Shown in pieces: positions 20,592-43,293 of a DNA stretch of 47,381 nucleotides. The stretch is taken from the NCBI GenBank assembly GCA_022561875.1, contig JADFQJ010000020.1:1-47381 (forward strand), given 5' to 3'. The translations under genes and the position numbers were made by a program. The DNA is from Bacteroidota bacterium. GTDB lineage: Bacteria > Bacteroidota > Bacteroidia > Bacteroidales > VadinHA17. The stretch's first letter is position 1. Each line of letters opens with the position of its first letter. The notes under the pieces were generated by a model. That model was not told where the DNA came from, ran no database searches, and saw nothing but the letters and a program-made list of their open reading frames with translations.

Positions 20592-21036
20592 AATTTGTAT
20601 TGTGTTATTGAGTTAAATACTTGTAAATAAACAAATTGAAACAACTTTCGGATAAAATAATTTTCAACGAAAATAGTCATTTTTGCTCTAATTAAAATAT
20701 GTTAAAAAACAAAGTAACTATTCAGTGCCTAAAGTTTAAAATGAGTAAATGATTAAATGAGGAGTCTGTCTATTTGGCATTCTGGCTGCTTTTGGGAGAT
20801 TGCTTTGTCGCTGCGCTCCTCGCAAAATCTTTTTTCACGCTTTATAATCTGTTTAAAACTACACCTTTGGCAAAGTATCATCGTGAATCGTGAAGAGTTC
20901 ATGTTTCATTTTTCGATTAAAATTTGTGCATGCATCCCATGTAATGCATAGTAAGTATACGGATTTTGCGAACGAAGTGAAGCAATCTCTCCTGACTTTT
21001 CGTAAAGCTTATGAAAGTCCTTATTAGTTATTAGAA
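20592..21036. repeat. Intergenic region with composite repeat, copy A
   Basis: Holds two modules. Module 1 (about 20762-20835) contains the arm GATTGCTTTGTCGCTG...GCAAAATC (20798-20829). Module 2 (20919-21020) contains the opposing arm GGATTTTGCGAACGAAG...GCAATC (20961-20987). The two arms form an imperfect inverted repeat. Both modules recur, nearly base for base but in the opposite order, at 43110-43283. A GTGCCTAAAGT word is at 20725. The element ends 16 bases from the TonB-receptor stop codon. No gene seen. Confidence 0.7.
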
Positions 21037-23484
21037 TTAAAACCGGACCGACACTTTGAAATTTATCCTTCTGGAAGTAAGGTAGTTAGGAACGGCAAAC
21101 TGGTTTGAAGTATTGTCGAGGTTATTCACTGTCCTGATCCAGATGTACGAAATAGTGTTATTTATATCCAACAGGTTAAATATCTCTGCCCCGATCCGGA
21201 TTGTTTCCAGATGTTTGAGAACCCCATTCATTAAACGGGAATTGTCTTCTGCTGAAAAAGTTTTTGAGGAACCAATATCCACCCTGCGATATGACGGCAT
21301 CCTGAAATACTGGTCAAATCGTTCGGTAGTAACAGGTTTGGTCGGTAATCCTGTTCCATAATGCATTATAAGGTGTACCCGGTATGTTGAGTTACCGGGA
21401 AAGTAGTCCTGGAAAAACAGGGAGAAATTCAGGAGCTGATCTGTTGGTCGCGGATAAGATCCCGGGTAGATTGTTTCACCGGCATCATTAAGATATGAAT
21501 CGTTTTCAATATCTTCCCTGGCCTGCATAATGGATAAGCTTGCCCATGATTCTGCATCATCCACAAACTCGCCATTTATTTTCAAATCGATCCCGGTAAC
21601 ATACCCATGGGCAATGTTCCGGCCAATATAATCAATACGTACATTATCGATGAAATAAGGAATCAGCTGATCGAGTTTTTTATAATATACCTCGGCAGTA
21701 AACTTGAATGGACGGTCCCATGCAATAAAATTATACTCGCTGCCTGCAACCCAATGAACTGACTTTTGAGCTTCAATATCTTTATTGACAGATCCATCAG
21801 GGGTCCTGAGCTCTTTATAAAAAGGAGGTTGATAATAAACCCCGGTTGACAGGTGAAACCTCCAGTCACTAAGCCAGGCAGGTTCCAGATGGACCATAGC
21901 CCTGGGACTTAACAGGAATTGGTTATTCAGGTCCCAGTAATGGAATCGTAGTCCACCAGTAACCTGTATTGATGTTGTACCAATGGAATAAAGTCCGGTA
22001 TGCTGCAAAAATGAGGTATATCGGTTTGAGGATAACCCGTTGTTTGCATACTTGCTCTCGGTCAGATTCACTTCTTCACCGGAGTAGGGCAGGGAAAACC
22101 CGGCGGAATCAACAAGTTTCCATTCCCTTATCCGATCGTTTATTATCTCATGTTTTATCTTCAAACCCCATTCAAAAATGCTTTTGCCAGACTTATACTT
22201 TCCTTTTTGAGATGCTGATAATACGGTAGCATCCAGATTGTTCCTTGCATGATCAATAAAATGGCCAACCCCGATATTCATAATGCTGTCTCCCAAACTC
22301 TCTGACCCGATCTCTCTGTCAAGAGCATTCAATGAATAAAACCCTTCAATGTCGAATGTTTCCTGCTCACTGGTGTTAAACACTGAAAGAATATGTTTTA
22401 TCTCTATTTTGTTATTTGGCCGGTAATCAGCAGAAACAGCTCCGGTTAATGTTGTAAACCTGTCGATCTCCCGGCCATTATAAAGAACGAACAGTTGTAC
22501 TGCATCTTTCACTGTTCCAAATGAAGTCCGGCGGTTCTCTGGAACAAACTTGTAGGAGTTCATGGCAAAATTCCCCAGAAAACCTATGTTCCATTTTTCG
22601 CTTAAGTCATAGTTCAGATATGTCTGAAGATCAGAGAAGGAGGGTTTGTAGTCACCTTTGGTGTCAAAGGTGTTTAGAAGATACTGGTTAGATTTATACC
22701 GAAAACCGGTTATATGAGTAAATTTCATATTTGACGATCTGTCTTCAATATGTGCTGAACCGCCTAAAAGACTAAAACCAAAAGAGCCGGAAAATTTCGT
22801 TGGTTTCCTGTACCGGATATCCAATACCGACGCCATTTTATCCCCATATGAAGCATCAAATCCACCGGCTGAGAATTTAATGGAAGAGACCATGTCGGGA
22901 TTTACAAAACTTAGACCTTCCTGTTTGCCTGAACTGACAAGAAACGGGCGGTAAACCTCAATATCGTTAACATAAACCAGGTTTTCATCAAAATTCCCAC
23001 CCCTGACAAAGTATTGGGAACTCAATTCATTTGAAGATGATACACCGGGCATGGTTTTAAGCAATGACTCGATGCTACCGGAAGGATTAGGAAGCACGTG
23101 AAAATCTTTCAATTCGATTTGCATGAAGCCAGGCGGGATCTCGCGGCTTCCGTACACTTCTACCTCTTTCAGTTCTTTGCTTAACGACTTAAGTATCAAA
23201 CTGATGGTTTTACCTTTACCTGTTACGGTCGTTAAACTTATTTTCTTTTTGATGTATCCTATGGCTGAAATGACCAGGGTATAGTTTTTATCTTTCTCCA
23301 GTACCAGTCTGAACATACCGGTTGAATCTGCTGAGGTTCCGAGATTTGTATTCTCAGCATAAACGTTTGCATAAGGGACAGGACCACCTGTTGTATCACG
23401 AACAGCCCCGTTAAGTATATAGTTCTCTTGTCCAGACACCATAGAGGGTAAAAGGAACAGGAAAACTAAACTGGTATATTTCAT
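21037..23484 (-). CDS. TonB-dependent outer-membrane receptor with carboxypeptidase-regulatory-like domain
   Basis: An 815-residue protein with a signal peptide to about residue 18 (ending MVSGQ). A CarboxypepD_reg-like beta-sandwich (about 20-105, NGAVRDTTGGPVPYANVY and GTSADSTGMFRL) precedes the plug (about 110-225, PNPSGSIESLLKTMPGVSSSNELSSQYFVRGGNFDENLVYVNDIEVYRP). The barrel runs to the final aromatic residue (NFKVSVRF). There is no SusD partner, so it is not a classic starch-type pair. The substrate is unknown. The gene for a small protein with the same regulatory domain lies 140 bases upstream on the same strand and may be functionally linked. Confidence 0.92.
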   Translation of the reverse strand: MKYTSLVFLFLLPSMVSGQENYILNGAVRDTTGGPVPYANVYAENTNLGTSADSTGMFRLVLEKDKNYTLVISAIGYIKKKISLTTVTGKGKTISLILKSLSKELKEVEVYGSREIPPGFMQIELKDFHVLPNPSGSIESLLKTMPGVSSSNELSSQYFVRGGNFDENLVYVNDIEVYRPFLVSSGKQEGLSFVNPDMVSSIKFSAGGFDASYGDKMASVLDIRYRKPTKFSGSFGFSLLGGSAHIEDRSSNMKFTHITGFRYKSNQYLLNTFDTKGDYKPSFSDLQTYLNYDLSEKWNIGFLGNFAMNSYKFVPENRRTSFGTVKDAVQLFVLYNGREIDRFTTLTGAVSADYRPNNKIEIKHILSVFNTSEQETFDIEGFYSLNALDREIGSESLGDSIMNIGVGHFIDHARNNLDATVLSASQKGKYKSGKSIFEWGLKIKHEIINDRIREWKLVDSAGFSLPYSGEEVNLTESKYANNGLSSNRYTSFLQHTGLYSIGTTSIQVTGGLRFHYWDLNNQFLLSPRAMVHLEPAWLSDWRFHLSTGVYYQPPFYKELRTPDGSVNKDIEAQKSVHWVAGSEYNFIAWDRPFKFTAEVYYKKLDQLIPYFIDNVRIDYIGRNIAHGYVTGIDLKINGEFVDDAESWASLSIMQAREDIENDSYLNDAGETIYPGSYPRPTDQLLNFSLFFQDYFPGNSTYRVHLIMHYGTGLPTKPVTTERFDQYFRMPSYRRVDIGSSKTFSAEDNSRLMNGVLKHLETIRIGAEIFNLLDINNTISYIWIRTVNNLDNTSNQFAVPNYLTSRRINFKVSVRF

Positions 23485-23626
23485 TTTGATTCCGGAGAAC
23501 TATTTCCTTTACAATAACTAAAAAACATACAATAAATTGCATCCGTTTTCATTTTAAGACTGTTGTTTTACCAGACATCTGACATTTGCCATCATCTACC
23601 CTTCTCCTCTTCACATTTGACATAAA

Positions 23627-24310
23627 CTAACGGTCTTTTTCAGTTTTTTTCTCTTCTTTAGGTATATATCGTTTCAGTTTACCTTTCTTAAGTTCATTGA
23701 AGAATTTAGCCCATGCCAGCGGGTTTAAAAGATTATTTACAGGATACTGCCCATATGTTATTGTTTTCTGGATCTGCTGGTTCATAGCCTGCTTATAGGC
23801 AACACCCGGGTAGGAAGTGTTATCATATTTCATCTGGATTTGTATTATTGCAATATTTCTTAATGCGTATTCGTAATCACCTTCAGGAATTCTCAGACTT
23901 AGAAAAGCCTCCTTAAATTCTTCATACGTTTTCCAGGGAAGGATAATAACTTCTTCAAGCATGATCGTGTCATATTCCATCACAACATCGATTGAATAAT
24001 AGAAATCATCTACCTTCTGAGGTACAACGTAATAGGTGGGTTTATAGCTCATACAAGAGAATAATATAGTATCATTCTCATGCGTGATTATTGTAAAAAG
24101 ACCTGTGTTATCAGTGATTGTTCCGCGGCGGGTAGTCCTGGAAATAACATGAGCGAATTTGATAGGTTCGGACTTGCTGTTGAAAATCATTCCTGAAAGT
24201 TGAAGCAATTTACCTTCCTGTGCTGACATGATTATTCCTGATAGCATGAAGAATGTGATTAAAAGAAGCTTCATTTTCATTGTAAAGACCGTAGCTGTTT
24301 TAGCTAACAA
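23627..24310 (-). CDS. Small carboxypeptidase-regulatory-like domain protein
   Basis: The frame is 227 residues, but the ATG at 24280 (MKMKLLLITFFMLSGIIMSAQ) gives a clean signal peptide and is the likely start. A CarboxypepD_reg-like domain follows (LSGMIFNSKSEPIKFAHVISRTTRRGTITDNTGLFTI). The rest is an uncharacterised Bacteroidota tail with LEEVIILPWKTYEEFKEAF and a lysine/glutamate-rich end. It is exported, probably to the periplasm or outer membrane. It lies upstream of the TonB receptor and shares its N-terminal domain type. Confidence 0.8.
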   Translation of the reverse strand: MLAKTATVFTMKMKLLLITFFMLSGIIMSAQEGKLLQLSGMIFNSKSEPIKFAHVISRTTRRGTITDNTGLFTIITHENDTILFSCMSYKPTYYVVPQKVDDFYYSIDVVMEYDTIMLEEVIILPWKTYEEFKEAFLSLRIPEGDYEYALRNIAIIQIQMKYDNTSYPGVAYKQAMNQQIQKTITYGQYPVNNLLNPLAWAKFFNELKKGKLKRYIPKEEKKTEKDR

Positions 24311-24315
24311 AAATA
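24308..24315 (-). promoter_or_regulatory. Candidate -7 box (minus strand)
   Basis: Reads TATTTTTG on the minus strand, 28 bases before the ATG at 24280. This supports that start over the longer frame, which would begin at or inside the promoter. Confidence 0.45.
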
Positions 24316-24381
24316 ATAATTATAATAAGATTAACCGGATATGGAAATTTTTTAATATTTTTTAAATTTAAATAGTAATTT

Positions 24382-24389
24382 TAAATTTG
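24382..24389 (+). promoter_or_regulatory. Candidate -7 box for the YjbQ gene
   Basis: TAAATTTG, matching TAnnTTTG, 18 bases before the TTG start at 24407. It forms a divergent pair with the minus-strand box at 24308-24315. Confidence 0.4.
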
Positions 24390-24406
24390 TTGAAAAGAAA
24401 ATAGTT

Positions 24407-24817
24407 TTGATTAAACAGTTTGAGATTAAGTTGCCGGCATACCCAAAAGGGTTTCATCTCATTACCAGGATGGTTACCGACCAATTACATGAACTTCCCG
24501 ATAAGGGTCTGGTCCATATTCTGCTTAAACATACTTCGGCAGGTATCACTTTGAACGAGAATGCTGATCCCTCGGTAAGAACAGACTTTGAATCGTTCAT
24601 GAATAAGATTATACCTGAAAACGATCCTGTTTATACTCATGTTTTTGAAGGAGCAGATGATATGCCTGCTCATCTCAAATCATCACTCATCGGACATACA
24701 CTGATAATACCTGTTACTAACGGGCGCCTGAACCTTGGAACATGGCAGGGGATATATTTGTGTGAATTCAGGAACTATGGCGGTCCAAGAAAACTGGTTG
24801 TTACTGTCTATAGTTGA
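24407..24817 (+). CDS. YjbQ family protein (UPF0047)
   Basis: A 136-residue protein of normal length for the family. Signatures: GLVHILLKHTSAGITLNEN, DPSVRTDFESFM, HLKSSLIGHTLIIPVTNGRLNLGTWQGIYLCEFR and the final GGPRKLVVTVYS. The conserved HTSAG histidine and the GTWQ loop are kept. YjbQ has been linked to a weak thiamine-phosphate synthase activity, but its physiological role is not settled. The only in-frame start giving full length is TTG 24407, directly after a TAnnTTTG box. Confidence 0.9.
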   Translation: MIKQFEIKLPAYPKGFHLITRMVTDQLHELPDKGLVHILLKHTSAGITLNENADPSVRTDFESFMNKIIPENDPVYTHVFEGADDMPAHLKSSLIGHTLIIPVTNGRLNLGTWQGIYLCEFRNYGGPRKLVVTVYS

Positions 24818-25471
24818 CAGAAATTCAAGGTAGTTATATTTTATAAGTTAAAAGCTATAAGTCATCCTTCATCCTTCCAATGTGTTACGAGTTACGGGTT
24901 TCGTGTTACGGGTTAAGTTGGATTATTACGAACGAAGTGAAGTTTTGGAACGATGAACGATAAAGGTTGAAAACCTGCCACGTGAAATGCGACATAGGAG
25001 CATATTTCACTGTGGTTGAAGGTCAAGGTTTAAGTTAAAGTTTGTTATATATCCCCTTTTTTATGCTTTACAATATAACTCTTTCTTGGCTTTTTTTATT
25101 GAAACTAACTGATTTTTATATTAATTTATTCGATATTCGTAATTCAATATTCATTATTCTCTTCTTCTCCTCTTCACCTCTTCTCCCTCTCATTTCATCT
25201 TTCCGTCTCTTAACCCGAAACACGTAACTCGTAACCCGCTTCACTGCAACACTGCATCACCTCATTACCACATTACCTCAGCACAATTCTTAACCCGTGA
25301 ATCGAGGCGCTAAAAATTAGTCCTACCCGTAACTCGTATCTCGAACCCCGTAACTTTTTACACTACATCACAATTTCCCAACTCATGGTTTCATAACATA
25401 TCCACAACAATTCTTTCCAATCATTTTATTATTATTTTTGATCATCACTTCGAATATAATTTTATAATAAT
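24818..25471. repeat. Gene-free 654-base region of degenerate word repeats
   Basis: No gene is visible. It is built from recurring words: TTACGAGTTACGGGTT and relatives (24887-24917) and their complements CACGTAACTCGTAACCCG (25220-25238) and CCCGTAACTCGTATCTCG (25326-25343); a CGAACGAAGTGAAG word (24930) shared with the composite repeat; a CCACGTGAAAT/ATTTCACTGTGG imperfect palindrome (24978-25015); AT-rich CGATATTCGTAATTC text (25130); and a pyrimidine run of CTTCTCCTCTTCACC words (25160-25205). A candidate -7 box for iorA ends it. Confidence 0.6.
25433..25440 (+). promoter_or_regulatory. Candidate -7 box for iorAB
   Basis: TATTTTTG, a TAnnTTTG match 31 bases upstream of the iorA ATG. No convincing TTG was seen at the usual distance. 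Confidence 0.45.
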
Positions 25472-27079
25472 ATGCAAAGGTTAATGTTGTTAGGTGATGA
25501 AGCTATTGGTCAGGGCGCTATTGACGGCGGGATGTCAGGTATTTATGCTTATCCGGGAACACCTTCTACCGAAATTATGGAATATGTTCAGAATTCACAG
25601 GAAGCTGCTGAAAAGGAGATATTGCGTGAATGGTCAGCCAACGAAAAAACTGCCATGGAAGCTGCATTAGGAATGTCGTATGCCGGTAAGCGTGCCATGG
25701 TTTGTATGAAACATGTTGGACTAAATGTTGCAGCAGATCCTTTTATTAATTCAGCAATTACCGGTGTACGTGGTGGATTGCTTGTGGTCTCTGCTGACGA
25801 TCCTTCAATGCATTCCTCTCAGAATGAGCAGGATTCCAGGTTTTATGGGAAATTTGCCATGATCCCTGTTCTGGAACCTTCAAATCAGCAGGAAGCGTAT
25901 AATATGGCATATACAGGGTTTGAACTTTCAGAAAAGTTAGGAGTACCTGTTCTGATCCGGATCACAACCCGTCTTTCCCATTCAAGATCAGGAGTTGAAA
26001 AACAACAATCTAAATCTCAACGGGAACTTTCCCTGCCTGAGGATTTGAAGCAGTTTATCTTACTGCCGGCCAACGCCAGGGGAAGGTATGCTAACCTTGT
26101 AAAGAGTCAGACTGCTTTTGAAGCTGTTGCAGAAGATTCAAAGTTTAATGAATTATACCCGGGAAAGAATAAAAAGCTTGGAATTATCGCGTGCGGTATC
26201 GCATACAATTACCTTATGGAAAATTTCAGGGATCAAAAGCCGGAATATCCGATATTGAAAATTTCGCATTATCCGCTTCCGCGAAAAAAAGTGGAAAAGT
26301 TAATCGGATCGTGTAAAGAAGTTCTTGTTATTGAGGAAGGGTATCCGATTGTGGAAGAGATGCTGAAGGGTTTCCAGGAAAAAGGAACAAAGATAAAAGG
26401 ACGCCTGGATGGCAGTTTACCGAGAGTTGGGGAATTGGATCCAAACCATGTAGCAATATCTTTAGGAATAAAAGTTTCATACGGGTCGAAAGTACCCGGT
26501 TTCCTTCCGGAACGGCCACCGGCTTTATGTAAAGGATGTGGGCATATTGATGTTTTTAATGCACTTAATGAAGCAATGAAAAAGTATGGTGGCGGAAAGG
26601 TGTTTTCCGATATTGGATGTTATACACTGGGTGCATTGCCTCCTTATAATGCCATAAATTCATGTGTTGATATGGGTGCTTCTGTTACAATGGCCGTTGG
26701 TGCCGCTGATGCCGGACTTAAACCATCGGTTGCTGTAATAGGTGATTCAACTTTTACACATTCCGGAATGACAGGACTGCTGGATGCGGTTTATAAGAAA
26801 TCCTCTGTAACTCTGCTCATTTCTGATAACTATACCACGGCTATGACTGGTGGGCAGTCATCCCTGGCTACAAACAGACTTGAACAGATATGTCTTGGTT
26901 TGGGTGTGGAGAAGGAGCATTTAAGAACATTTGTACCTTTGAAAAAGAACCATGGTGATAATGTGAAAATAATTAAAAAGGAACTTAAATATAACGGAGT
27001 ATCAGTGATTATTGCCCAACGTGAATGCATAAAAAATGTTTTAAAAAAGAAAAAAGCAAAAGGGAAGTTGAGTAGTTGA
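25472..27079 (+). CDS. iorA: Indolepyruvate (2-oxoacid) ferredoxin oxidoreductase, alpha subunit
   Basis: A 535-residue thiamine-diphosphate enzyme that oxidatively decarboxylates aryl or branched 2-oxo acids to acyl-CoA, reducing ferredoxin. The N-terminal half is the pyrimidine-binding domain (AYPGTPSTEIMEYVQ, EWSANEKTAMEAALG, MKHVGLNVAADP, DDPSMHSSQNEQD). The C-terminal half binds the diphosphate (ERPPALCKGCGHIDVFNAL, IGDSTFTHSGMTGLLDA, ISDNYTTAMTGGQ). IorA usually ends with a two-cluster ferredoxin domain; here the protein stops after IIAQRECIKNVLKKKKAKGK, with no CxxCxxC motifs. The start is the first ATG after the promoter. Confidence 0.92.
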   Translation: MQRLMLLGDEAIGQGAIDGGMSGIYAYPGTPSTEIMEYVQNSQEAAEKEILREWSANEKTAMEAALGMSYAGKRAMVCMKHVGLNVAADPFINSAITGVRGGLLVVSADDPSMHSSQNEQDSRFYGKFAMIPVLEPSNQQEAYNMAYTGFELSEKLGVPVLIRITTRLSHSRSGVEKQQSKSQRELSLPEDLKQFILLPANARGRYANLVKSQTAFEAVAEDSKFNELYPGKNKKLGIIACGIAYNYLMENFRDQKPEYPILKISHYPLPRKKVEKLIGSCKEVLVIEEGYPIVEEMLKGFQEKGTKIKGRLDGSLPRVGELDPNHVAISLGIKVSYGSKVPGFLPERPPALCKGCGHIDVFNALNEAMKKYGGGKVFSDIGCYTLGALPPYNAINSCVDMGASVTMAVGAADAGLKPSVAVIGDSTFTHSGMTGLLDAVYKKSSVTLLISDNYTTAMTGGQSSLATNRLEQICLGLGVEKEHLRTFVPLKKNHGDNVKIIKKELKYNGVSVIIAQRECIKNVLKKKKAKGKLSS

Positions 27080-27149
27080 TTAAGGTGAGTGGGTAAGTAA
27101 GAAAGAATGAAGAGTTAAAGGTTCAGGAAACCACAGTAACCAGTAACAT

Positions 27150-27743
27150 ATGAAAAATGATATTATTCTCTCAGGTGTTGGTGGACAGGGTATTTTAACC
27201 ATTGCGGCTGCAATAGGTATGGCTGCTCTTGAAAGTGAACTATATCTGAAGCAGGCAGAGGTGCATGGAATGAGCCAGAGGGGAGGATCAGTACATTCAA
27301 ATCTGCGATTGTCAGACAAAGAGATTGCCTCCGACCTTATTCCTTACGGGCAGGCTGACCTTATTCTTTCTGTCGAGCCGATGGAATCACTCCGTTATCT
27401 GCCTTACTTATCAGAAAATGGTTGGCTGGTAACAAATTCTAAGCCCTGTATCAATATTCCCGATTATCCGGATATAGATAAAATAATAAAGGAAATTAAA
27501 AAGAATCCGAATTATTTGATCCTTGATGCTGTTAAAATAGCTACTGTATTGGGTTCACCAGGGAGTGCAAATATTATAATGCTCGGTGCAGCTTCACTTT
27601 TCATTGATATTGCCGTGGAATATTTTGAGAAAGGAATTCAAAAATTGTTCTGTCGTAAAGGCGAAGAGGTTGTTAAAGTGAATATTGACGCATTTCACGC
27701 CGGACGGAATTATGCATTAAATAAAGGTTCATCCGGAAAATGA
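27150..27743 (+). CDS. iorB: Indolepyruvate ferredoxin oxidoreductase, beta subunit
   Basis: A 197-residue gamma-type subunit with the GVGGQGILT motif (residues 9-17), EVHGMSQRGGSVHSNLR (42-58) and PYGQADLILSVEPMESLRYLPYL, all typical of the 2-oxoacid:acceptor oxidoreductase catalytic partner. It pairs with IorA 70 bases upstream; the gap holds GAGTGGGTAAG-type words. Its last residues, GSSGK, and its stop codon are encoded by the 5' part of a dispersed repeat (see 27724-27770), so the native C-terminus may have been replaced. Confidence 0.92.
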   Translation: MKNDIILSGVGGQGILTIAAAIGMAALESELYLKQAEVHGMSQRGGSVHSNLRLSDKEIASDLIPYGQADLILSVEPMESLRYLPYLSENGWLVTNSKPCINIPDYPDIDKIIKEIKKNPNYLILDAVKIATVLGSPGSANIIMLGAASLFIDIAVEYFEKGIQKLFCRKGEEVVKVNIDAFHAGRNYALNKGSSGK

Positions 27744-27770
27744 ACAGGTGTCAGATGGAAAGATGGAATA
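27724..27770 (+). repeat. TTCATCCGGAAAATG module, copy 1
   Basis: Contains TTCATCCGGAAAATGAACAG followed by GTGTCAGATGGAAAGATGGAATAG. It overlaps the last codons and the stop of iorB. Copies 2 and 3 are at 32511-32546 (-) and 35846-35890 (+). Confidence 0.75.
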
Positions 27771-28096
27771 GTCACCAAGACTCACAAAGAACAGATAATC
27801 AGTATTTTATTAATATTAATATTCGTGCATTCGTGGCTTCCTTTATATTCGGAGTGGACTCAACTTTTAACATATAACGTGTAATTCTTTAGAATAATGG
27901 AATTCTCACCAGCCCAGGATAGAAGCGCGTGGATTTTAGGCGCTTGCCTGTCCATATTATAGATTGTAACTATTCAGTATCTTAAGTTTGGAATAAAAGA
28001 AATGCCTAAAATGCCTAAAGTGCTAAATGGAGAAGTGCATAAAGTGGCTAATCTCATTATACTTTGCATTTTTGTCTATCGCCGACTGATTAGTTA
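27744..28096. repeat. Gene-free 353-base region
   Basis: Begins inside repeat copy 1. It then holds a GACTCAACTTTTAACATATAACG stretch (near 27860-27879) complementary to the 14-base unit at 46829, a hairpin AAGCGC...GCGCTT (27923-27945) flanked by CAGG/CCTG, and ATGCCTAAAATGCCTAAAGTGC words (27998-28023). No gene is seen. Confidence 0.5.
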
Positions 28097-29152
28097 CTAT
28101 AGATTAAATTCGAAACTCAGGAACAAAAAGGGCTGATTGCCGATATCAACAGCTGTACTGTACCAGTTCCTGAAATTTAAAGCAATTTTAACTTCATTAA
28201 CTGGCATGAACTGAATTCCGCCAATTATGGCTTGTCCATCATTGGTAACATTCCAGTCGTTTTCCATTCCTTCCGGTTTATTGGACGCCAGTTTATCAAA
28301 TCTTCCGAATATCTCAAACTTCTTGCTCAGTAAATATGATGCATACGTTGAGTAACCTGTCTGGTTTTGGTTTAAAATATAATTGCTGTTTACCATAAAG
28401 TCAACCTCTATACCGAAGGTTAACCTTTCGTCTTTCCATCCTAAAAAACCTGCAAAGATGCTTTGAATTTCTTCTTTTGCGATAAAATCATAATATAATC
28501 GGGTGGTAAAATGTTCGGAAAGCCGTACAGTTATTCCGATACCGGTTCTGAAGGTATTATCCAGCTGAGGTTTCTCATAACCTTCACCATTCATTATGGA
28601 AATATCGGCCGAAATGTTTGAATTGAACCGGTAATCAAAGCTTGTTCCAGCATCAGCAGAGGAACCCATTTCATGCTCATCGGGTAATGTCTTATAAAGA
28701 TAACGGTGTCCCCAGTATTTTTCCTGCAATTTAAAAAGCTTTGTAGGGATAATACCAAAGTACCATGTAAACTTATCCTTATTATATTTAAGTGCAACAT
28801 TCTTAAAATAAGTGTACCTTCTTGTTTCTGAACCGGAAAAAATATTCTCCAGATTACCTATATCTATTTTTACCTCGGTAGAGAAATATTCATTAATAAA
28901 ATACTTATACCCGAGATAGGATCTGGTAATTTCAAAAGCCGATTCGTTGATTTCATTTGAAAGATCAGTATGAAAATTGCTGAAAAACCTGACAATAGGC
29001 TCTCCATGCGGTGTAAATTCATCTTTATTAACAACTTGTTGTGCATCACAGTAATACGTACTAAGAATTGTTGACAACAAAATTAGAAAAGTGATACTGT
29101 TCTTTGGTTTTAGCATAAAAATGAATTTTTGCAAATCTAATATAATCATCAA
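28097..29152 (-). CDS. Porin-like outer-membrane beta-barrel protein
   Basis: The frame is 351 residues, but the ATG at 29116 gives MLKPKNSITFLILLSTILSTYYCDAQQ, a proper signal peptide, and is preferred. After a short linker, alternating amphipathic strands rich in Tyr, Phe and Trp run to the end (SFEFNL, terminal Leu after Phe/Asn). EITRSYLGYKYFINEYFSTEVKIDIG and FTWYFGIIPTKLFKLQEKYWGHRYLYK resemble Bacteroidota porins of the phosphate-selective OprO/P type. With a PhoB-like regulator and a PiT transporter next to it, phosphate passage is plausible (inference). An unspecific porin is the alternative. Confidence 0.72.
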   Translation of the reverse strand: MMIILDLQKFIFMLKPKNSITFLILLSTILSTYYCDAQQVVNKDEFTPHGEPIVRFFSNFHTDLSNEINESAFEITRSYLGYKYFINEYFSTEVKIDIGNLENIFSGSETRRYTYFKNVALKYNKDKFTWYFGIIPTKLFKLQEKYWGHRYLYKTLPDEHEMGSSADAGTSFDYRFNSNISADISIMNGEGYEKPQLDNTFRTGIGITVRLSEHFTTRLYYDFIAKEEIQSIFAGFLGWKDERLTFGIEVDFMVNSNYILNQNQTGYSTYASYLLSKKFEIFGRFDKLASNKPEGMENDWNVTNDGQAIIGGIQFMPVNEVKIALNFRNWYSTAVDIGNQPFLFLSFEFNL

Positions 29153-29400
29153 TATATTAATATATTAATAGTAAAGAAAGATGAAATAAATTATTAATTT
29201 TCGCTATTTTGTTAAAAAATTTATAAAACTGCTTTTATATATTGCGACGAAGTAAATCAATTAAGATTATCTGCGGATTAAGAACAGTTTAAGTTTTTGT
29301 TAATTTCCTGCCTTTTTTCTGTAACTTTTCATATTTATTTAATACTGACTAAAAGATTTTATCATATATTTAATGCACCTTATCTATTGAGTTTTTTAGT

Positions 29401-30102: not shown

Positions 30103-30110
30103 TTATAAGA

Positions 30111-34515: not shown

Positions 34516-34523
34516 TAAATTTG
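34516..34523 (+). promoter_or_regulatory. Candidate -7 box
   Basis: TAAATTTG, a TAnnTTTG match. Transcription from it would start near 34530, which favours ATG 34556 over ATG 34535 for the next gene. Confidence 0.45.
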
Positions 34524-34534
34524 AACGGTATCCG

Positions 34535-35764: not shown

Positions 35765-35785
35765 ACTTATTGACGATTCGTTATA

Positions 35786-35813
35786 ACCTATCCTTGCCAG
35801 GGTGGGTTTTTTT
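35786..35813 (+). terminator. Rho-independent terminator
   Basis: ACCTATCCT (35786-35794) pairs with AGGGTGGGT (35799-35807), nine pairs including two G-U, around a TGCC loop, followed by seven T residues. It ends the 409-residue gene. Confidence 0.65.
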
Positions 35814-35845
35814 CTTGTCGTTTTATAATCAGTCGGTTTATTTTA

Positions 35846-35890
35846 GATTCATCCGTAAAATGTACAGGTGTCTGTTGGAATATTGGAATA
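35846..35890 (+). repeat. TTCATCCGGAAAATG module, copy 3 (diverged)
   Basis: Reads GATTCATCCGTAAAATGTAC, then AGGTGTCTGTTGGAATATTGGAATA. It differs from copies 1 and 2 at a few bases but has the same order of parts, core then TGGAATA words, in front of the next gene. Confidence 0.65.
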
Positions 35891-35933
35891 AATAATATTT
35901 ACACAAAATGAGATTGATCAGAAAATACAAATA

Positions 35934-36731
35934 ATGACTGATGAATTAAAAATAACTATCGTTCAAACCAACATCCATTGGGAGAATAAGAACGAAAATA
36001 CAGAAATGTTTAGCCGTATAATCAGAAATATGGCGCAGAATACCGATCTGGTGATTCTTCCCGAAATGTTTAGCACCGGGTTCAGTATGCAGCCCGCCTT
36101 ACTGGCTGAATATATTAATGGCCCAACTGTCAGTTGGATGAGCAAAATAGCCCGGGAATATAATGCTGTGATTACGGGAAGTATTATTATCAGGGAGAAA
36201 AATAAATTTCTGAACCGGTTGATCTGGATGCCCCCTGATGGTAATCTAAAATACTGTGATAAGCGCCATCTTTTCAGGATGGGTGAGGAGACCCAATATT
36301 ACTCAAGGGGAAACAAGAAGCTGATAACAAGCTGGAAAGGTTGGAGATTCAGACCTCTGGTTTGTTATGACCTCCGGTTCCCGGTGTGGAGCCGGAACAG
36401 AAATGATTATGATATGTTGATTTATGTAGCTAACTGGCCTGAAGCACGCCGGAAAGTGTGGAAAAACCTGCTTGTTGCCCGTGCCCTGGAGAACCAGGTG
36501 TATGTTGTTGGTGTTAACCGTATAGGTGTCGACGGGCGTGATATTTCATATGCCGGTGAATCCATGATTGTAAATCCCAGGGGTAACATAGTTTCAGAGA
36601 TAAGCGCCCATAAGGAATCCGTAGAAACCATAAGCGTGTCCCTGGATGACCTGATTACTTTCCGTGAAAAATTCCCTGTCCACCTCGATGCTGACAACTT
36701 CCGGATTAAACCCGAAACCCGTAACCCGTAA
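35934..36731 (+). CDS. Carbon-nitrogen hydrolase, omega-amidase-like (YafV/NIT2 type)
   Basis: A 265-residue cytoplasmic nitrilase-superfamily amidase. The catalytic triad is visible: Glu44 in VILPEMFSTGF, Lys110 in CDKRHLF and Cys144 in RPLVCYDLRFPVWSRN. The FSTGFSM, KRHLFRMG and CYDLRFP context is typical of YafV/omega-amidases, which hydrolyse 2-oxoglutaramate or 2-oxosuccinamate, products of glutamine or asparagine transaminases. This fits amino-acid catabolism in the window. The last residues, KPETRNP, and the stop are encoded by a CCCGAAACCCGTAACCCG word tract, so the native end may be altered. Confidence 0.9.
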   Translation: MTDELKITIVQTNIHWENKNENTEMFSRIIRNMAQNTDLVILPEMFSTGFSMQPALLAEYINGPTVSWMSKIAREYNAVITGSIIIREKNKFLNRLIWMPPDGNLKYCDKRHLFRMGEETQYYSRGNKKLITSWKGWRFRPLVCYDLRFPVWSRNRNDYDMLIYVANWPEARRKVWKNLLVARALENQVYVVGVNRIGVDGRDISYAGESMIVNPRGNIVSEISAHKESVETISVSLDDLITFREKFPVHLDADNFRIKPETRNP

Positions 36732-36738
36732 CCCGGAA
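36710..36738 (+). repeat. CCCGTAAC word tract at a gene end
   Basis: CCCGAAACCCGTAACCCGTA, then ACCCGGAACTGC. It encodes the C-terminal residues and stop of the amidase gene. It is the same kind of word as in 24887-24917, 25220-25238 and 25326-25355. Confidence 0.6.
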
Positions 36739-36748
36739 CTGCTTCACA

Positions 36749-39694
36749 TTATTTCTCCCTCAAAGCATCATACAACACTTCCACTGGGTGGTAAGCTGTT
36801 CGTTTTGTACCGTCTTTTATCTGGTGCCTGCAGCTTGTACCGGTCGCAACAATAAGAGTTTTTTCTGTGGTTTCCCTGATGGCAGGGAATAAAACCAGCT
36901 CCCCGACTTTCATGCTCAGGTCGTAGTGCTCTTTTTCGTATCCGAAAGAACCGGCCATACCACAGCATCCTGAAGGAATTTCTTCGACACTGTAATTTTC
37001 AGGCAAAGACAATAATTTTTTTGTGGCATCGGTTGAAGCAATTGATTTCTGCTGACAATGGCCATGTAACTTGATATGCTGTTTCTTCCGGGTGAAGGAT
37101 TCAGTAGTGATCAGTCCCTTTTCCATTTCCCGTACCAGGAATTCATCAATCATAAAAGTATTGCCGGCAATATACCGGGCTGTTTCCTTTTTTTTACCAC
37201 GTACAAGGTCAGGATACTCATCACGGAAACTCAGTATCGCTGAAGGTTCAATTCCTATAAGAGGCTTTTCTTCAGAAATCAGCGGACCGAAAATTTCAAG
37301 ATTTTCAACAGCCAGTTGCTGAGCTTTGCGTATCAGACCTTTGGAGATATAAGCTCTTCCGCTTTCTGCATGGAACGGAGTCTCAACCCTGTAACCTAAT
37401 CTTGTCAGCAAACGGATGGTTTTTATACCTATAGGAGTGTCGTTGTAGTTAGTAAATTCATCTATAAACAGGTAAACAGTGCCGTTTGGCGGATTTACAG
37501 GGTTGATGGCAGAAAGGTTTCGCCGGACCCACTTTCTGAGTGTTGTCCGGTAAACTCCCGGAATACTCCTCCTGGTTGCGAATTTCAGGATCTTTTTTAT
37601 CGGAAAGGATAATACCCGGCTCCCGGCAAAAAGGTTGAATAACGTGGGAAAAACGGTCCCTATACGGTTGATTTTTGAAATGTTAGCGATTACCCTTGTA
37701 CGAAGAGGAATACCATGTTCATCATAGTAATGTTGAAGAAATTCGGCTTTCATTTTGGCTACGTCCACACTGGAAGGGCATTCTGATTTACATCCTTTAC
37801 AGGAAAGACACAGATCAAGAATTTCGTATAATTCTGTGTGATTAAACGGTTTTTCCTGCCCTGGTAAGCTAAGTAATTCCCGCAACAGATTAGCTCGTGC
37901 CCTGGTGGAAGAATGCTCATCACGTGATGCCATGTAACTTGGGCACATTGTTCCACCCGCCTTTTCTGTTTTCCGGCAATCGCCTGAACCGTTACATTTT
38001 TCAACTGCCCTGACAATTCCGCCAGTATCCGAGAAGTCAAATATGGTTTTGATCTCCGGTGTAACCCGACCGGGAATGTACCGCAGACTGGTGTTCATCT
38101 TTGGAGTATCTGTTATCTTTCCCGGGTTGAACAACTGGTAAGGATCCCATGTCTTTTTTAACTCTTTCAGCAAGTCATAGTTCCTCTCTCCCAGGATGAT
38201 TGGAATAAATTCCCCGCGAAGCCGTCCGTCACCGTGTTCCCCGCTCATTGATCCACGATACTTTTTAACCAACCTGGCAACTTCAAGTCCCAGGGTCCTG
38301 AAAAGTTTTACATCCTCAGGATCTTTCAGGTTCAGGACAGGTCGCAGGTGCAGTTCTCCTGATCCGATGTGTGCATAATAGACACACTCCTTGTTGTGTC
38401 TCTCCAGAATATTTTTAATTTCATCCATATAATCAGGCAACATCTCCACATTAACCGCTGTATCTTCGATCAGCGAAACCGGTTTTGCATCTCCTTTCAT
38501 ATTTGACAAAATACCAAGCCCGGCTTTTCTAAGATTCCACACCTTGTCTACATCAGGCGGAAAAACAAGGGGGAAATAGTAACCGTATCCCTCTTTCCGC
38601 ATATCTGCTTCCATGTTTTTCGCGATCTGTGTGATTTCCTCACGCGTTGCCCGGGCAAATTCAATTATCAGGACGGTTGCCGGTTTCCCTTTGATAAAAA
38701 AACGGTTTTTCTGTTGCTCCAGGTTACCTTCTGTAAGTTCCAGCACAGTATGGTCCATCATCTCCACGGCTCCTGGTTTGTGTTTCAGTGCAATGAGGTT
38801 TGCCCTGAAAGTTTCCTCCAGGGTTTCGAAATGAACACAGACCAAACCTTTCTCCCGGAGCGGAAGGTCAACCAGGTTTAACTTGATCTCTGTTGTGAAA
38901 GCCAGGGTTCCTTCCGATCCTGCCAGTAACCTGGAAAAGTTAAAAGACCCTTCACCCGGAGTGAAAACATCTGATTTCAGCAACAGGTCCAGTGCATAAC
39001 CTGTATTACGTCTGGGAATAACTGGATCAGGATATTCGTTACGTATTGATTCCTTGTTTATCTCATTTGTAAGCATCTCCCGGATGGACCGGTAAAGTTG
39101 GTTTTCAAGTGATCCTCCCTGGCACTTCATTTCAAATTCTTTAGCTGTAAGATCGCTGAATAAAGCCTCAGATCCGTCGCTTAACAAAGTGCGTACTTCC
39201 AGGGTATGATCCCGGGTGCTGCCGTACAGGATGGAATGAGCGCCGCAGGCATTATTACCCAACATTCCGCCAATCATACAACGATTGGAAGTTGAAGTTT
39301 CCGGTCCGAAAAACAGACCTAATGGTTTAAGATATTGATTCAGTTCATCCAGTATGACACCGGGCTCCACACGTACCCATTTCTCCGTTTTGTTTACTTC
39401 AACGATCCGGTTCATATAACGTGAAACATCTACAATTATCCCTTTAGCTACAACCTGACCGGCAAGTGAGGTCCCGGCAGTCCGTGGTGTTACCGGTATT
39501 TTGTTTTTGCGCGACCAGGTAATGATTCTGTGAATATCCATTTTGTTTTTTGGGCGGGCAATGGCCAGAGGTTTTTCACGGTAAACCGAGGCATCAGTAG
39601 CATATAACAAACGGCTGACCTCATCGTAAAAAAGATCCCCATCCAGAGATCCGGCAAGGGTTTTAAGCCGGCTGGTTATAGCAGATAGGTCCAT
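36749..39694 (-). CDS. FAD-binding and Fe-S-binding D-2-hydroxyacid dehydrogenase (YdiJ/D-lactate type)
   Basis: A 981-residue fusion. An FAD_binding_4 domain (about 40-235: TPRTAGTSLAGQ, GPETSTSNRCMIGGMLGNNACGAHS) and FAD-oxidase C-terminal domain (to about 520: MSGEHGDGRLRGEF) are followed by a two-cluster ferredoxin-like part with CNGSGDCRKTEKAGGTMCPSY and CLSCKGCKSECPSSVD. GlcF-like cysteine-rich motifs close the protein (HGHCQQKS, PSGCCGMAGSFG). Such proteins oxidise D-lactate, D-2-hydroxyglutarate or glycolate and pass electrons through the clusters. Substrate is not decidable here. An 8-base inverted repeat lies directly before the ATG. Confidence 0.9.
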   Translation of the reverse strand: MDLSAITSRLKTLAGSLDGDLFYDEVSRLLYATDASVYREKPLAIARPKNKMDIHRIITWSRKNKIPVTPRTAGTSLAGQVVAKGIIVDVSRYMNRIVEVNKTEKWVRVEPGVILDELNQYLKPLGLFFGPETSTSNRCMIGGMLGNNACGAHSILYGSTRDHTLEVRTLLSDGSEALFSDLTAKEFEMKCQGGSLENQLYRSIREMLTNEINKESIRNEYPDPVIPRRNTGYALDLLLKSDVFTPGEGSFNFSRLLAGSEGTLAFTTEIKLNLVDLPLREKGLVCVHFETLEETFRANLIALKHKPGAVEMMDHTVLELTEGNLEQQKNRFFIKGKPATVLIIEFARATREEITQIAKNMEADMRKEGYGYYFPLVFPPDVDKVWNLRKAGLGILSNMKGDAKPVSLIEDTAVNVEMLPDYMDEIKNILERHNKECVYYAHIGSGELHLRPVLNLKDPEDVKLFRTLGLEVARLVKKYRGSMSGEHGDGRLRGEFIPIILGERNYDLLKELKKTWDPYQLFNPGKITDTPKMNTSLRYIPGRVTPEIKTIFDFSDTGGIVRAVEKCNGSGDCRKTEKAGGTMCPSYMASRDEHSSTRARANLLRELLSLPGQEKPFNHTELYEILDLCLSCKGCKSECPSSVDVAKMKAEFLQHYYDEHGIPLRTRVIANISKINRIGTVFPTLFNLFAGSRVLSFPIKKILKFATRRSIPGVYRTTLRKWVRRNLSAINPVNPPNGTVYLFIDEFTNYNDTPIGIKTIRLLTRLGYRVETPFHAESGRAYISKGLIRKAQQLAVENLEIFGPLISEEKPLIGIEPSAILSFRDEYPDLVRGKKKETARYIAGNTFMIDEFLVREMEKGLITTESFTRKKQHIKLHGHCQQKSIASTDATKKLLSLPENYSVEEIPSGCCGMAGSFGYEKEHYDLSMKVGELVLFPAIRETTEKTLIVATGTSCRHQIKDGTKRTAYHPVEVLYDALREK

Positions 39695-39695
39695 A

Positions 39696-39713
39696 TAGCT
39701 GAATTTTCAGCTA
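39696..39713. promoter_or_regulatory. Inverted repeat at the start of the FAD/Fe-S dehydrogenase gene
   Basis: TAGCTGAA, TT, TTCAGCTA: perfect 8-base arms with a 2-base centre, ending one base before the ATG (minus strand). It could be an operator or an RNA hairpin over the ribosome-binding region. Confidence 0.45.
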
Positions 39714-39787
39714 AAATAACAATTTCTGGCTTCAGTAAGCCATGACAATAGTCATAATGTAAAATTAGAAAAGCAAACAATTTTAGT

Positions 39788-39795
39788 TAACTTTG
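39788..39795 (+). promoter_or_regulatory. Candidate -7 box for the pta operon
   Basis: TAACTTTG, a TAnnTTTG match 38 bases before the pta ATG. No clear -33 TTG. Confidence 0.5.
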
Positions 39796-39833
39796 CAACT
39801 TAACATAATTATATTATAAAATACTGATTTACA

Positions 39834-40841
39834 ATGGAGTTAATTGAAGTAATCAAAGAAAAAGCTAAGAAACAAAATAAGAGAATTGTATTACCAGAAG
39901 GTACAGAGGAAAGAACCCTGAAAGCAGCTGATATCCTGATAAAAGAAAAAATCACTAATATCATCCTTCTCGGAAGAAGGGTAGATGTAGAAAGTGCCGC
40001 CGGAAGATTAGGTTTAAGGAATATAAGAAATGCTACTATTATAGATCCGGCAAATCATCCGAAAAAGTTAGAATATATCGATTTGATGGTTGAGACAAGG
40101 AAGCATAAAGGTCTTTCCCGGGATGAAGCATTTAAGTTAATTGAAGATCCTCTTTTTCTTGCAACTCTGATGATTAAGAATGGTGATGCTGACGGTGAGG
40201 TTGCCGGTGCAAAGAATGCCACCACCGATGTCCTGAGACCGGCTTTTCAGTACATAAAAACCATGCCCGGAATAAGTGTTGTGTCCGGAGCTTTTATTAT
40301 GATCCTGAAAGAAAAGACATATGGTGAGAATGGAATACTTGTTTTTGCTGATTGTGCGGTTCATCCTGACCCTTCGGAGAATGAACTTGCTGAAATTGCA
40401 GTTGCTACGGCAAACACCACCAGGGCTATTGCAGGATTCGAACCAAGGGTTGCCATGCTTAGCTTTTCAACTAAAGGTAGTGCGAAACATGAAATGGTTG
40501 ATAAAGTTGTTGAAGCAACCCGTATTGCCCGTATTTTGGACCCTTCCTTGAAAATAGATGGTGAGTTGCAGGCAGATACGGCAATTATGGAATCAATTGC
40601 TAAAAAGAAAGCTCCGGCAAGTGAAATTGCGGGGAAAGCCAATGTACTTATTTTTCCAACCCTTGAAGCTGGAAATATCGTCTATAAACTTGTACAGCGA
40701 CTTGCACATGCTGAAGCCATCGGACCTGTATTGCAGGGAATGGCTGCACCTATCAACGACCTCTCAAGAGGATGTTCTGTTAGTGATATTGTAAACCTGG
40801 TCGCTATCACAGTCAACCAGGCAGCTACCGTAAAAAAATAA
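39834..40841 (+). CDS. pta: Phosphate acetyltransferase
   Basis: A 335-residue enzyme that swaps the CoA of acetyl-CoA for phosphate. It has the short form (no N-terminal DRTGG/CobB-like domain). Visible: IVLPEGTEERTLKAAD, EDPLFLATLMIKNGDADGEVAGA, TTDVLRPAFQ, SFSTKGSAKHEMVDK and VLIFPTLEAGNIVYKLVQRLAHAEAIGPVLQGMAAPINDLSRG, all typical of Pta. It starts a run of fermentation genes; hbd begins 6 bases after its stop and ackA follows. Confidence 0.95.
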   Translation: MELIEVIKEKAKKQNKRIVLPEGTEERTLKAADILIKEKITNIILLGRRVDVESAAGRLGLRNIRNATIIDPANHPKKLEYIDLMVETRKHKGLSRDEAFKLIEDPLFLATLMIKNGDADGEVAGAKNATTDVLRPAFQYIKTMPGISVVSGAFIMILKEKTYGENGILVFADCAVHPDPSENELAEIAVATANTTRAIAGFEPRVAMLSFSTKGSAKHEMVDKVVEATRIARILDPSLKIDGELQADTAIMESIAKKKAPASEIAGKANVLIFPTLEAGNIVYKLVQRLAHAEAIGPVLQGMAAPINDLSRGCSVSDIVNLVAITVNQAATVKK

Positions 40842-40847
40842 AATAAG

Positions 40848-41813
40848 ATGAAAACAGAAGTACTTGAAGATTATGCATTAAAAAAACGAACCCGCCAAAA
40901 GGGGAGTCTGAAAAAGGTAGGTATAATTGGCGCCGGTACTATGGGTCAGGATATTGCAGTGATTATTAGTAAGCAAGGAATAGATGTGATATTTATTGAC
41001 CTTACCGAGGAAAGAGTTGACGAGATTTTTAATGAAATATCCCTGCGTCTTGATGAAATAATTAATAAATGGGGGATGACAAAAAGTGAGAAACGGGCAA
41101 TTATTTCACGGATAAGCGGATCAGTTGATTATAACGATATCAGTGATTGTGATTTGGTAATCGAATCCATAAATACAAAAAAAGCCGGCTCGAGCAAGGA
41201 ACTGAGAAAAAATGTATTCAAGAAAATTGAATCAGTGGTATCAAAAGATACGATTCTTGTATCCAATACATCCACATTGGTGATCTCTGAGCTGGCTCAG
41301 GTGCTGGATTATCCTGACAGGGCAGTTGGTTTGCATTTTATTACTCCGGCAATAACTGTTAAAGTTGTTGAAGTGGTTAAAGGAATAAAGACAAGTGATA
41401 AATCATATGAATTTGTGGTTAAGTTTGCTAAATTTATTGGGAAAATTCCCATTACAATTCATGAATCACCAGGCAATATCAGTACACGTCTCATTACAAC
41501 AATCATTAACGAAGCGTGTGAAACCCTGATGGAAGGCATTGCTTCTACTACCTCTATAGATACTACCATGAAAAAAGGATATGGTATGCAGTTTGGTCCA
41601 TTTGAGCTGGCTGATCGTATTGGTCTTATTAAATTGGTAAAATGGATGGAAAATCTGTATGCAGAGTTTGGAGAGCAGAAATTCAAACCAAATCCGATTC
41701 TTAAACGGCTGGTGAGATCCGGTTTTTATGGAAAAACTTCAGGTTCCGGATTTTACCATTATGAGAATGGACTGGCTACTGCTGAAACTATAACTTACCC
41801 CGAGATCAAATAA
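40848..41813 (+). CDS. hbd: 3-hydroxyacyl-CoA (3-hydroxybutyryl-CoA) dehydrogenase
   Basis: A 321-residue NAD-dependent enzyme. After an unusual basic N-terminal stretch (about 1-22, LKKRTRQKGSLKK) comes the Rossmann motif VGIIGAGTMGQDIA (24-37), the catalytic His in AVGLHFITPA, the glutamate region and the C-terminal dimer domain (GYGMQFGPFELADRIGL, KTSGSGFYHYENG). The usual HFFNP/HFMNP text is HFITP here. It interconverts acetoacetyl-CoA and 3-hydroxybutyryl-CoA in butyrate formation or use. No thiolase, crotonase or butyryl-CoA dehydrogenase gene is in the window. It sits between pta and ackA. Confidence 0.88.
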   Translation: MKTEVLEDYALKKRTRQKGSLKKVGIIGAGTMGQDIAVIISKQGIDVIFIDLTEERVDEIFNEISLRLDEIINKWGMTKSEKRAIISRISGSVDYNDISDCDLVIESINTKKAGSSKELRKNVFKKIESVVSKDTILVSNTSTLVISELAQVLDYPDRAVGLHFITPAITVKVVEVVKGIKTSDKSYEFVVKFAKFIGKIPITIHESPGNISTRLITTIINEACETLMEGIASTTSIDTTMKKGYGMQFGPFELADRIGLIKLVKWMENLYAEFGEQKFKPNPILKRLVRSGFYGKTSGSGFYHYENGLATAETITYPEIK

Positions 41814-41852
41814 AGAACCGAATGTCGGTTATAATCAGTAAATGAACTTAGC

Positions 41853-43061
41853 ATGAAAATAATTGTTTTGAACTGTGGCAGTTCCTCTATCAAATATCAA
41901 TTATTCGATATGGAGGATGAAAAGGTATTTGCTAAAGGGCTTGTTGAAAAAATCGGCTTGCATGGATCAACAATCACAAATGAAAGGGATGATGGTGATA
42001 AAGTTAAACTCGAGGGTGAGATTATTGATCATCAGCAAGGAATAGAATATATTTTAGGCGTTCTGTCAAGTAAAAAGCATGGCAGTATAAGTGATTTTGG
42101 TGAAATTGATGCTATTGGTCACAGAGTTGTTCATGGGGGTGAGAAATTCAGTACGAGTGTTCTTATTACAGATGAAGTGATTAAACAAATAGAAAAATAT
42201 ATTGACCTGGCACCCCTTCATAATCCTCCCAACCTGAAAGGGATATATGCTATGAAAGAATTACTGCCCGGTCTTCCCCAGGTAAGTGTTTTTGATACTG
42301 CTTTTCACAATACCATGCCCATTTATGCATATATGTACGCTATACCTTATACACTCTATACTAAATATGGTATCCGTCGTTATGGTTTTCACGGAACTTC
42401 TCACAGTTATGTATCAAACCGAGCCTGTGAGATTCTTGGAAATAAATATGCAAAATCAAAAATTATTACATGCCATTTGGGCAATGGTGCATCTATCGCT
42501 GCAATTGACAAGGGAAAATCGATAGATACTTCAATGGGTCTTACACCGGTTGAAGGTCTGATAATGGGCACCAGATCAGGAGACCTGGATCTTGGCATTC
42601 TGACCTATATAATGCGAAGGGAAGAGATCGGTATCACCGAAGCAGATACCCTGATAAATAAACATAGCGGGATACTCGGTATTACAGGTATATCTTCGGA
42701 TATGCGTGAAGTGGAAGAGGCAGCCGAAAAAGGGAACTGGAGAGCATCCCTGGGACTGGATATGTACCATTACAGGATTAGAAAATACATAGGAGCTTAT
42801 GCTGCTGCTTTGGGGGGCATCGATATCCTGGTCCTTACCGGAGGAATTGGTGAGAATGCCGACCTGACAAGAAGTGAAATTTGTAAGGATTTTGAGTATT
42901 TGGGACTAAAATTGGATGCTGAGAAAAATAAAGGTGTCCGGGGAAAAGAGAAGGTTATTAGTGCAGATAATTCAAAAGTAATAGTGATTATTGTGCCTAC
43001 AAATGAAGAACTGGTAATCGCAAGAGATACCAGGGATATAGTTTCAGATACGGTTAAATGA
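41853..43061 (+). CDS. ackA: Acetate kinase
   Basis: A 402-residue ASKHA-fold kinase producing acetate and ATP from acetyl phosphate. Motifs: NCGSSSIKYQLF (7-18), HRVVHGGEKF, VFDTAFHNTMP, RRYGFHGTSHSYVS, HLGNGASIAAID, DTSMGLTPVEGLIMGTRSGDLD and TGGIGENA, with the adenosine-binding loop intact. Length is normal. It ends the pta-hbd-ackA set; a repeat element then separates it from ptb-buk. Confidence 0.96.
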   Translation: MKIIVLNCGSSSIKYQLFDMEDEKVFAKGLVEKIGLHGSTITNERDDGDKVKLEGEIIDHQQGIEYILGVLSSKKHGSISDFGEIDAIGHRVVHGGEKFSTSVLITDEVIKQIEKYIDLAPLHNPPNLKGIYAMKELLPGLPQVSVFDTAFHNTMPIYAYMYAIPYTLYTKYGIRRYGFHGTSHSYVSNRACEILGNKYAKSKIITCHLGNGASIAAIDKGKSIDTSMGLTPVEGLIMGTRSGDLDLGILTYIMRREEIGITEADTLINKHSGILGITGISSDMREVEEAAEKGNWRASLGLDMYHYRIRKYIGAYAAALGGIDILVLTGGIGENADLTRSEICKDFEYLGLKLDAEKNKGVRGKEKVISADNSKVIVIIVPTNEELVIARDTRDIVSDTVK

Positions 43062-43099
43062 GTGAATGAGTAAATGATAAGATGTGCGAAGAGGTGAGG

Positions 43100-43293
43100 T
43101 TTTAACCGGATTTTATTGGTTTAAAAAGGATTTTGCGAGGAGCGAAGCGACGAAGCAATCTCCCAAAAACAACCAGAATGCTAAATAACCAGACCGTCAT
43201 AAGCTTTATGAAAAGTCATGAAAGATTGCTTCACTTTGTTCGCAAAATCCGTATACTTATTATGCTTTAATGGTATGCACAAATTTTAACCGG
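43100..43293 (-). repeat. Composite repeat, copy B, with 10-base direct repeats at both ends
   Basis: Inverted arms at 43128-43160 (GGATTTTGCGAGGAGC...GCAATC) and 43224-43250 (GATTGCTTCACTTTG...AAATCC), with about 64 bases between. Read on the minus strand it gives module 2 followed by module 1 of copy A, in the reverse module order. TTTTAACCGG stands exactly at 43100-43109 and 43284-43293, like a target-site duplication. The second copy runs to within four bases of the preferred ptb start. Confidence 0.7.

Follow-up and report, generated by a model that had tools for sequence, protein, structure and literature searches.

The window, the whole 47,381-nucleotide stretch of DNA analysed here, contains two copies of a composite palindromic repeat. 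Copy A (20763-21022, + strand) is adjoined by a class III aminotransferase gene (19380..20591, - strand; PF00202), which served as a synteny anchor, and by a TonB-dependent receptor-like gene (21037..23484, - strand; PF13715 and PF07715). The aminotransferase has orthologues with 94-95% identity in five of six relatives; in the sixth, G004, it is cut by a contig end. Copy B (43074..43303, - strand) lies beside a phosphate acetyl/butyryltransferase gene (43270..44199, + strand; PF01515). The longest-frame start of this gene, at 43270, falls inside copy B. Its true start is probably an ATG codon (43297) that most of the element does not reach; the bases round this ATG are kept in G002, which has no element there, and in G004, where only about 27 bases upstream are visible, with no element within them. 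The flanks of many copies of the repeat (e.g. 43060-43110 and 20720-20762) contain short recurring intergenic words, ACTCATTT, GTGCCTAAA and GTTACGAGTT, that differ between orthologous sites.

Each copy consists of two halves, which we call L (the half with GGATTTTGCGA...GAAGCAATC) and R (the half with GATTGCTTC...TCGCAAAATCC); the GGATTTTGCGA...GAAGCAATC and GATTGCTTC...TCGCAAAATCC arms are inverted repeats. Against a genus-wide profile, copy A matches as R (20763-20889, + strand, profile 127-256, E 7.2e-32) followed by L (20888-21022, + strand, profile 4-133, E 4.6e-35), and copy B as L followed by R (43303-43074, - strand, profile 19-248, E 4.1e-73). A preliminary description had proposed, from nearly the same coordinates, that the two modules are swapped between the loci (its module 1 is our R and its module 2 our L), and both the profile and BLAST bore this out: the order is R-L in copy A and L-R in copy B. 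The modules had been put at about 70 and 100 bases; each is in fact about 100, since BLAST aligned copy B with copy A over 103 columns for R (82.5% identity) and 109 columns for L (87% identity). By sequence, the REP-like R arm of copy A lies at 20797..20829 and its L arm at 20961..20987 (both + strand), and the L arm of copy B at 43224..43250 and its R arm at 43128..43161 (both - strand), the last being of a type that a family-wide search also recovered from other genera. In copy B the dyad axis (43189..43196, - strand; profile about 127-133) falls in the interval where the edges of half copies are commonest.

The same description held that each copy is a large hairpin, and in both cases the fold was stronger than that of shuffled sequences. 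As single-stranded DNA, z was -2.9 for copy A and -3.6 for copy B; as RNA, the two strands of copy B gave z values of -5.5 and -4.9. No fold excess was found for a stretch of copy B missing part of the L arm (z -0.5), as expected if the fold needs both arms. Hairpins of single arms alone were weak as RNA (z about 0), indicating that the fold forms between the arms.

The window belongs to the genome of an uncultured Bacteroidales (G000; 2.77 Mb, 104 contigs), in which the copy A query has at least 56 matches (40 of 57 candidates scored), far beyond chance. We found the repeat scattered between genes in all seven of the same-genus genomes examined; these, like all genomes compared, are drafts. 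We assembled a catalogue of 155 loci, comprising the two window copies and 153 further stretches (33 in G000 and 120 in the six other genomes), which we aligned to a 267-position profile built on a single strand. Counts below refer to these 155 loci rather than to every copy; the loci were taken from the matches listed, with 40 candidates scored in five of the seven genomes. Left out of the 155 were the copy A site of G003 (G003:C329), which we read via L073, a contig long enough to show sequence on either side of the L half, and at least one further listed place (G005:C65:50542-50601). Flank similarity reduced the 155 loci to 111 sites; in the groups L105 with L127, L198 with L201, and also L091 with L119, both loci come from a single genome, so orthology may fail for some groups.

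The preliminary description had proposed searching the genome and its relatives for module order, and the catalogue shows it. An L-R element, called where the profile match starts at or before 88 and ends at or after 180, is present at 82 of the 111 sites. An L-only edge was seen at 31 sites and an R-only edge at 14 (one site may fall in several classes). The R-L order, read by eye from the profile listing, is clear at two sites, copy A and L123, and loose at a third, L193. At L123 (G001), R (129-262) is followed by L (44-117) with another small palindrome between them; at L193 (G006), the R tail starts at profile 177 and L comes 75 bases later. Other arrangements include a dimer with an L half about 350 bases on (L158) and a dimer preceded by an incomplete L piece (L149 and L031), and none of the 155 stretches contains two complete dimers. 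The order in copy B is the rule and that in copy A the exception. Other palindromes or repeat pieces lie inside one arm, near the hairpin loop, at five loci of G000 (L019, L020, L036, L046 and L049), and at the copy A site of G006 (L075/L196) TCCGCCAGCTGGCGGA is nested in the L arm near the hairpin loop; palindromes inside the arms of an element amount to repeats nested in repeats.

Beyond the genus, an exact L-arm pattern recovered 38 stretches from a public genome collection in which the window's genome may be absent, all of them in metagenome-assembled genomes labelled Bacteroidota, Bacteroidetes or Bacteroidales. At least 47 of 117 genomes of the wider family gave matches (seven candidates scored per genome), of which 7 are the genus itself and 40 lie outside it. 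Among the matches listed, those outside the genus are mostly confined to a 26-45 bp segment of the R arm (84-100% identity), a stretch that we take to be the core of CGTC-type REPs. A distant-mode search of a phage collection returned no match, and we found no description of this repeat family in the literature searched, which is a partial sample of the field.

Half copies are common, and loci with matching flanks can carry L-R in one genome and L alone or R alone in another, from which it follows that halves arise and change quickly. Their edges are commonest at profile positions 122-138, an interval that includes the dyad axis (17 of 45 edges, scan p 0.02); an interval of 124-140, placed round the axis once the edges were known, takes in 16 of 45 (p 0.003). 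This hotspot is moderate; the hairpin tip may have a role in generating halves. We also considered whether half copies are decayed remnants of dimers, and found no support for this, since they are as near the consensus as dimers are: identity to consensus was 0.899 in halves and 0.901 in dimers for L (p 0.44), and 0.899 and 0.879, respectively, for R (p 0.42).

The outer tails of L and R fall into a few types, set by eye, although many copies fit no type; no shuffled control out of 700 reached the typing threshold. In the tally each pair of types counts once at a given site. L-I tails were paired with R-I in 17 entries, with other right tails in 5 and with R-IV in none (22 L-I dimers). L-II tails were paired with R-II in 8, R-I in 1 and others in 2; L-III tails with R-IV in 8, R-I in 4 and others in 7; and untyped left tails with R-I in 12, R-III in 4, R-IV in 5 and others in 16. 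Among typed pairs, L-I and L-III are associated with R-I and R-IV non-randomly (Fisher p 1e-4). The subfamilies are not sealed, given the pairing of R-I with L-III in four entries and with L-II in one. Copy B combines L-I with R-I, whereas copy A combines R-IV with L-I. R-IV is infrequent (13 of about 89 dimer entries), so its absence from the 22 L-I dimers is by itself modest evidence, and the weight lies on the linkage of the typed tails. A circle or tandem array made from a single element would join tails of one subfamily; the tails of copy A come from different subfamilies, which largely rules out a permuted or tandem origin for it.

Synteny at the aminotransferase gene gives this site a history. 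The L half alone is present in G001, G003 and G006; G005 has unrelated filler in its place and G002 has nothing, and in G004 the site is hidden by the contig end. Since the L half stands alone in three relatives, it probably preceded the R half. When R of copy A is compared along with the flank to its left, 175 of 191 positions (92%) agree with L195 (G006:C61), a copy consisting of R alone, and L195 has the nearest R core to that of copy A among the 154 other loci. Part of the left flank is native to the copy A site, being present there in G003 and G006, and another part is made up of words found repeatedly in other places, making the R half itself stronger evidence than the flank. At the L195 locus, G001, G004 and G005 have the gene with no profile match (the R half is absent); the gene neighbouring the L195 R half was not found in G000 or G003. 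We conclude that the L half of copy A is probably the older and that R joined it later. We infer the direction of this change, a gain in G000; against it, the R half could be ancestral at the site and have been lost in the other lineages. The ends of the blocks in copy A fall in short shared stretches, TATTCAGTG on the left and ATC(A/G)TGAATC on the right, suggesting joining by short homology, but these matches sit in AT-rich, wordy sequence. Because the gene next to L195 was not found in G000, a donor within the same genome would be hypothetical. The copy B site is hidden by contig ends in G005 and G006 and partly visible in G003 and G004. A comparison by eye with element-free relatives demonstrated no target-site duplication for either copy A or copy B, the differences at both sites going beyond a single insertion.

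Taking these observations together, we think it fairly probable that the repeat is an inverted dimer of REP type, intergenic and specific to this genus, with copy B an ordinary example and copy A a secondary composite of two half-elements. A spacer of about 62 nt separates the opposed REP-like L and R arms, which have longer outer tails of a few matched types, and copy B is an ordinary type-I dimer (L-I ... R-I). The base of copy A would be an L-I half-element at the same site as in the three relatives. An R-IV half-element, of a kind that is free-standing elsewhere in a relative, would have been placed directly upstream of L-I in the same orientation, probably gained by ectopic copying or joining, aided by the short matching sequence at the block ends, rather than by permutation. 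Half-elements are common, and their edges often lie close to the dyad axis, where the hairpin has its tip. The pattern at the two loci looks like patchwork evolution of a repeat rather than one element turned inside out.

An alternative that we consider possible, though short of likely, is a REPIN-like dimer that depends for its movement on a HUH transposase of IS200/IS605 or RAYT type acting in trans, with copy A the product of two neighbouring insertions, of different subfamilies, that lost their outer halves. An inverted hairpin doublet that is dispersed between genes, with singlets around, resembles REPINs as described in PMC3116915; Y1 (IS200-like) transposases occur in 7 of 7 genomes of the genus; and whole and half copies are seen at orthologous sites. 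Against this, 14 fetched Y1 loci of 1.9-3.3 kb in these draft genomes contain no copy of the repeat, and none of the 6 Y1 proteins scanned, of the 14, reached the RAYT cut-off (best 45 of 80 bits). The copies share no constant pair of ends and carry several tail types, and halves are as near the consensus as dimers, where PMC3116915 reports that singlets are less conserved. The preliminary description had likened the repeat to non-autonomous elements moved by a transposase located elsewhere, with the mobility as inference; the repeat is dispersed, and such movement is possible, with no copy in the 14 Y1 loci, no shared pair of ends and no target-site duplication demonstrated. Y1/REP-transposase-like stretches were noticed at two loci: at L063 (G005:C181) within a long frame that, by eye, resembles a DNA methyltransferase/restriction protein, and at L071 (G001:C517) in a 255-aa frame with PF01797 that scores 45 bits against NF047646 (cut-off 80).

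The reading offered in the preliminary description was that of a circular permutation, or of a tandem array cut at different points. Under it, one element, circularised or in tandem, would have been opened at its centre, converting L-R to R-L. A dispersed, palindromic, non-coding repeat with variable module order, which it had also described, is what we observe. Copy A is indeed cut near the dimer centre, and its two halves meet tail to tail, R to L, as expected at the junction of a circle or tandem. However, these are tails of different subfamilies, in a combination unseen among the 22 L-I dimers; the L half is alone at this site in three relatives; and no stretch in the catalogue holds two complete dimers. 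We therefore regard permutation as very unlikely.

The copies are oriented with respect to neighbouring genes. We defined gene context from the longest stop-free runs, using one locus per site, and 71, 47 and 30 of the 111 sites were callable at three settings. Where the flanking genes are co-directional, they oppose the L-to-R direction at 34 of 44 sites (p 4e-4), and at 28 of 33 and 23 of 26 sites at the stricter settings; copies A and B both follow this bias. In the L-to-R direction the R arm is followed by CCTTTTT, and our guess is that the bias might reflect avoidance of termination. A terminator scan at copy B found none; a single promoter-like site was seen, where shuffled sequences averaged 1.7.

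This bias, the RNA folds of copy B and the 93.7% of standard inter-arm pairs over 79 copies would all fit a conserved structured RNA whose halves are its functional parts, the case that the preliminary description had named as speaking against its own reading. No Rfam match reached the gathering score within the window, however, and the presence and form of the repeat at a given site vary across the genus. Neither compensatory changes nor pairing exceeded the level in shuffles (9 double-change cells; shuffles averaged 5.2 and reached at most 11), and covariation, not being above shuffles, was rejected as evidence for an RNA. A structured RNA is thus a very unlikely account of the repeat. Least probable of all is misjoining of repeat copies during assembly, since, many-contig drafts and copies at contig ends notwithstanding, the flanks of copy A stand in the same order in relatives, such that a false join must leave and return to the same place, and a second clear R-L case (L123) lies in another genome.

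A more speculative extension of the half-element composite, and one that we consider unlikely as matters stand, is that half-elements are the spreading units: breakage at the hairpin tip would free L or R, and transposase-free, homology-assisted joining would fix them at new intergenic sites. If half-elements do spread in this way, dimers, reversed dimers and tail subfamilies would be continually rebuilt from halves. Independently of this extension, the distinguishable tails of the halves allow the origin of each half to be read site by site, and copy A is a worked example of the way in which two different parents can give an opposite-orientation dimer. The multiplication and rearrangement of repeats thereby become testable by comparison of related genomes.

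The repeat resembles several known systems and departs from each. MITEs are short, non-coding, dispersed inverted repeats with fixed terminal inverted repeats and a target-site duplication. The repeat of the window's genus is likewise short, non-coding, inverted-repeat and dispersed but, unlike MITEs, has variable ends of several tail types and no demonstrated target-site duplication. The BIMEs of enterobacteria are mosaics in which the orientation of the arms alternates and spacer modules recur. The repeat is like them in its mosaic make-up, although alternation is rare here, with R-L at two clear sites and one loose site of the 111, in fetched stretches that take in near neighbours only. Like REPINs as described by Bertels and Rainey (2011, PMC3116915), it forms inverted REP doublets that fold into one hairpin, with singlets around. 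In contrast to REPINs, no RAYT was found with the copies, among 14 Y1 loci and 6 scanned Y1 proteins. That paper reports REPIN singlets to be less conserved than doublets by pairwise identity, whereas here singlets are no more diverged than doublets, as judged by identity to the consensus.

The closest likeness is to CGTC-tagged REPs. According to Di Nocera et al. (2013, PMC3733652), these apparently have no dedicated transposase and mostly form head-to-head dimers, tail-to-tail ones being rare, and the spacers of the head-to-head dimers tend to be conserved. Our repeat likewise has short palindromic arms in inverted, mostly head-to-head dimers, with no linked transposase; head-to-head dimers predominate in the window's genus, given the L-R count. 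From the loci read, near-identical arm cores occur in other genera of the family beside GGTC/CGTC-like ends. In the sister genus, REPs are tail-to-tail at 4 of 5 loci read by eye, with the GGTC/CGTC-like ends inside, in contrast to the head-to-head arrangement in the window's genus; tagged REPs of other genera are tail-to-tail, about 60-65 nt apart by eye, at L216, L217, L219 and L220. The tagged CGTC consensus was found in 0 of 7 genomes of the genus with up to 3 mismatches allowed, and unlike those of CGTC-tagged REPs the arms end in AAAATCC and carry long tails of matched types. Since the CGTC tag is missing, we have not filed the family in the CGTC superfamily. The repeat of the window's genus is a tagless relative of CGTC REPs, with mosaic REP dimers.
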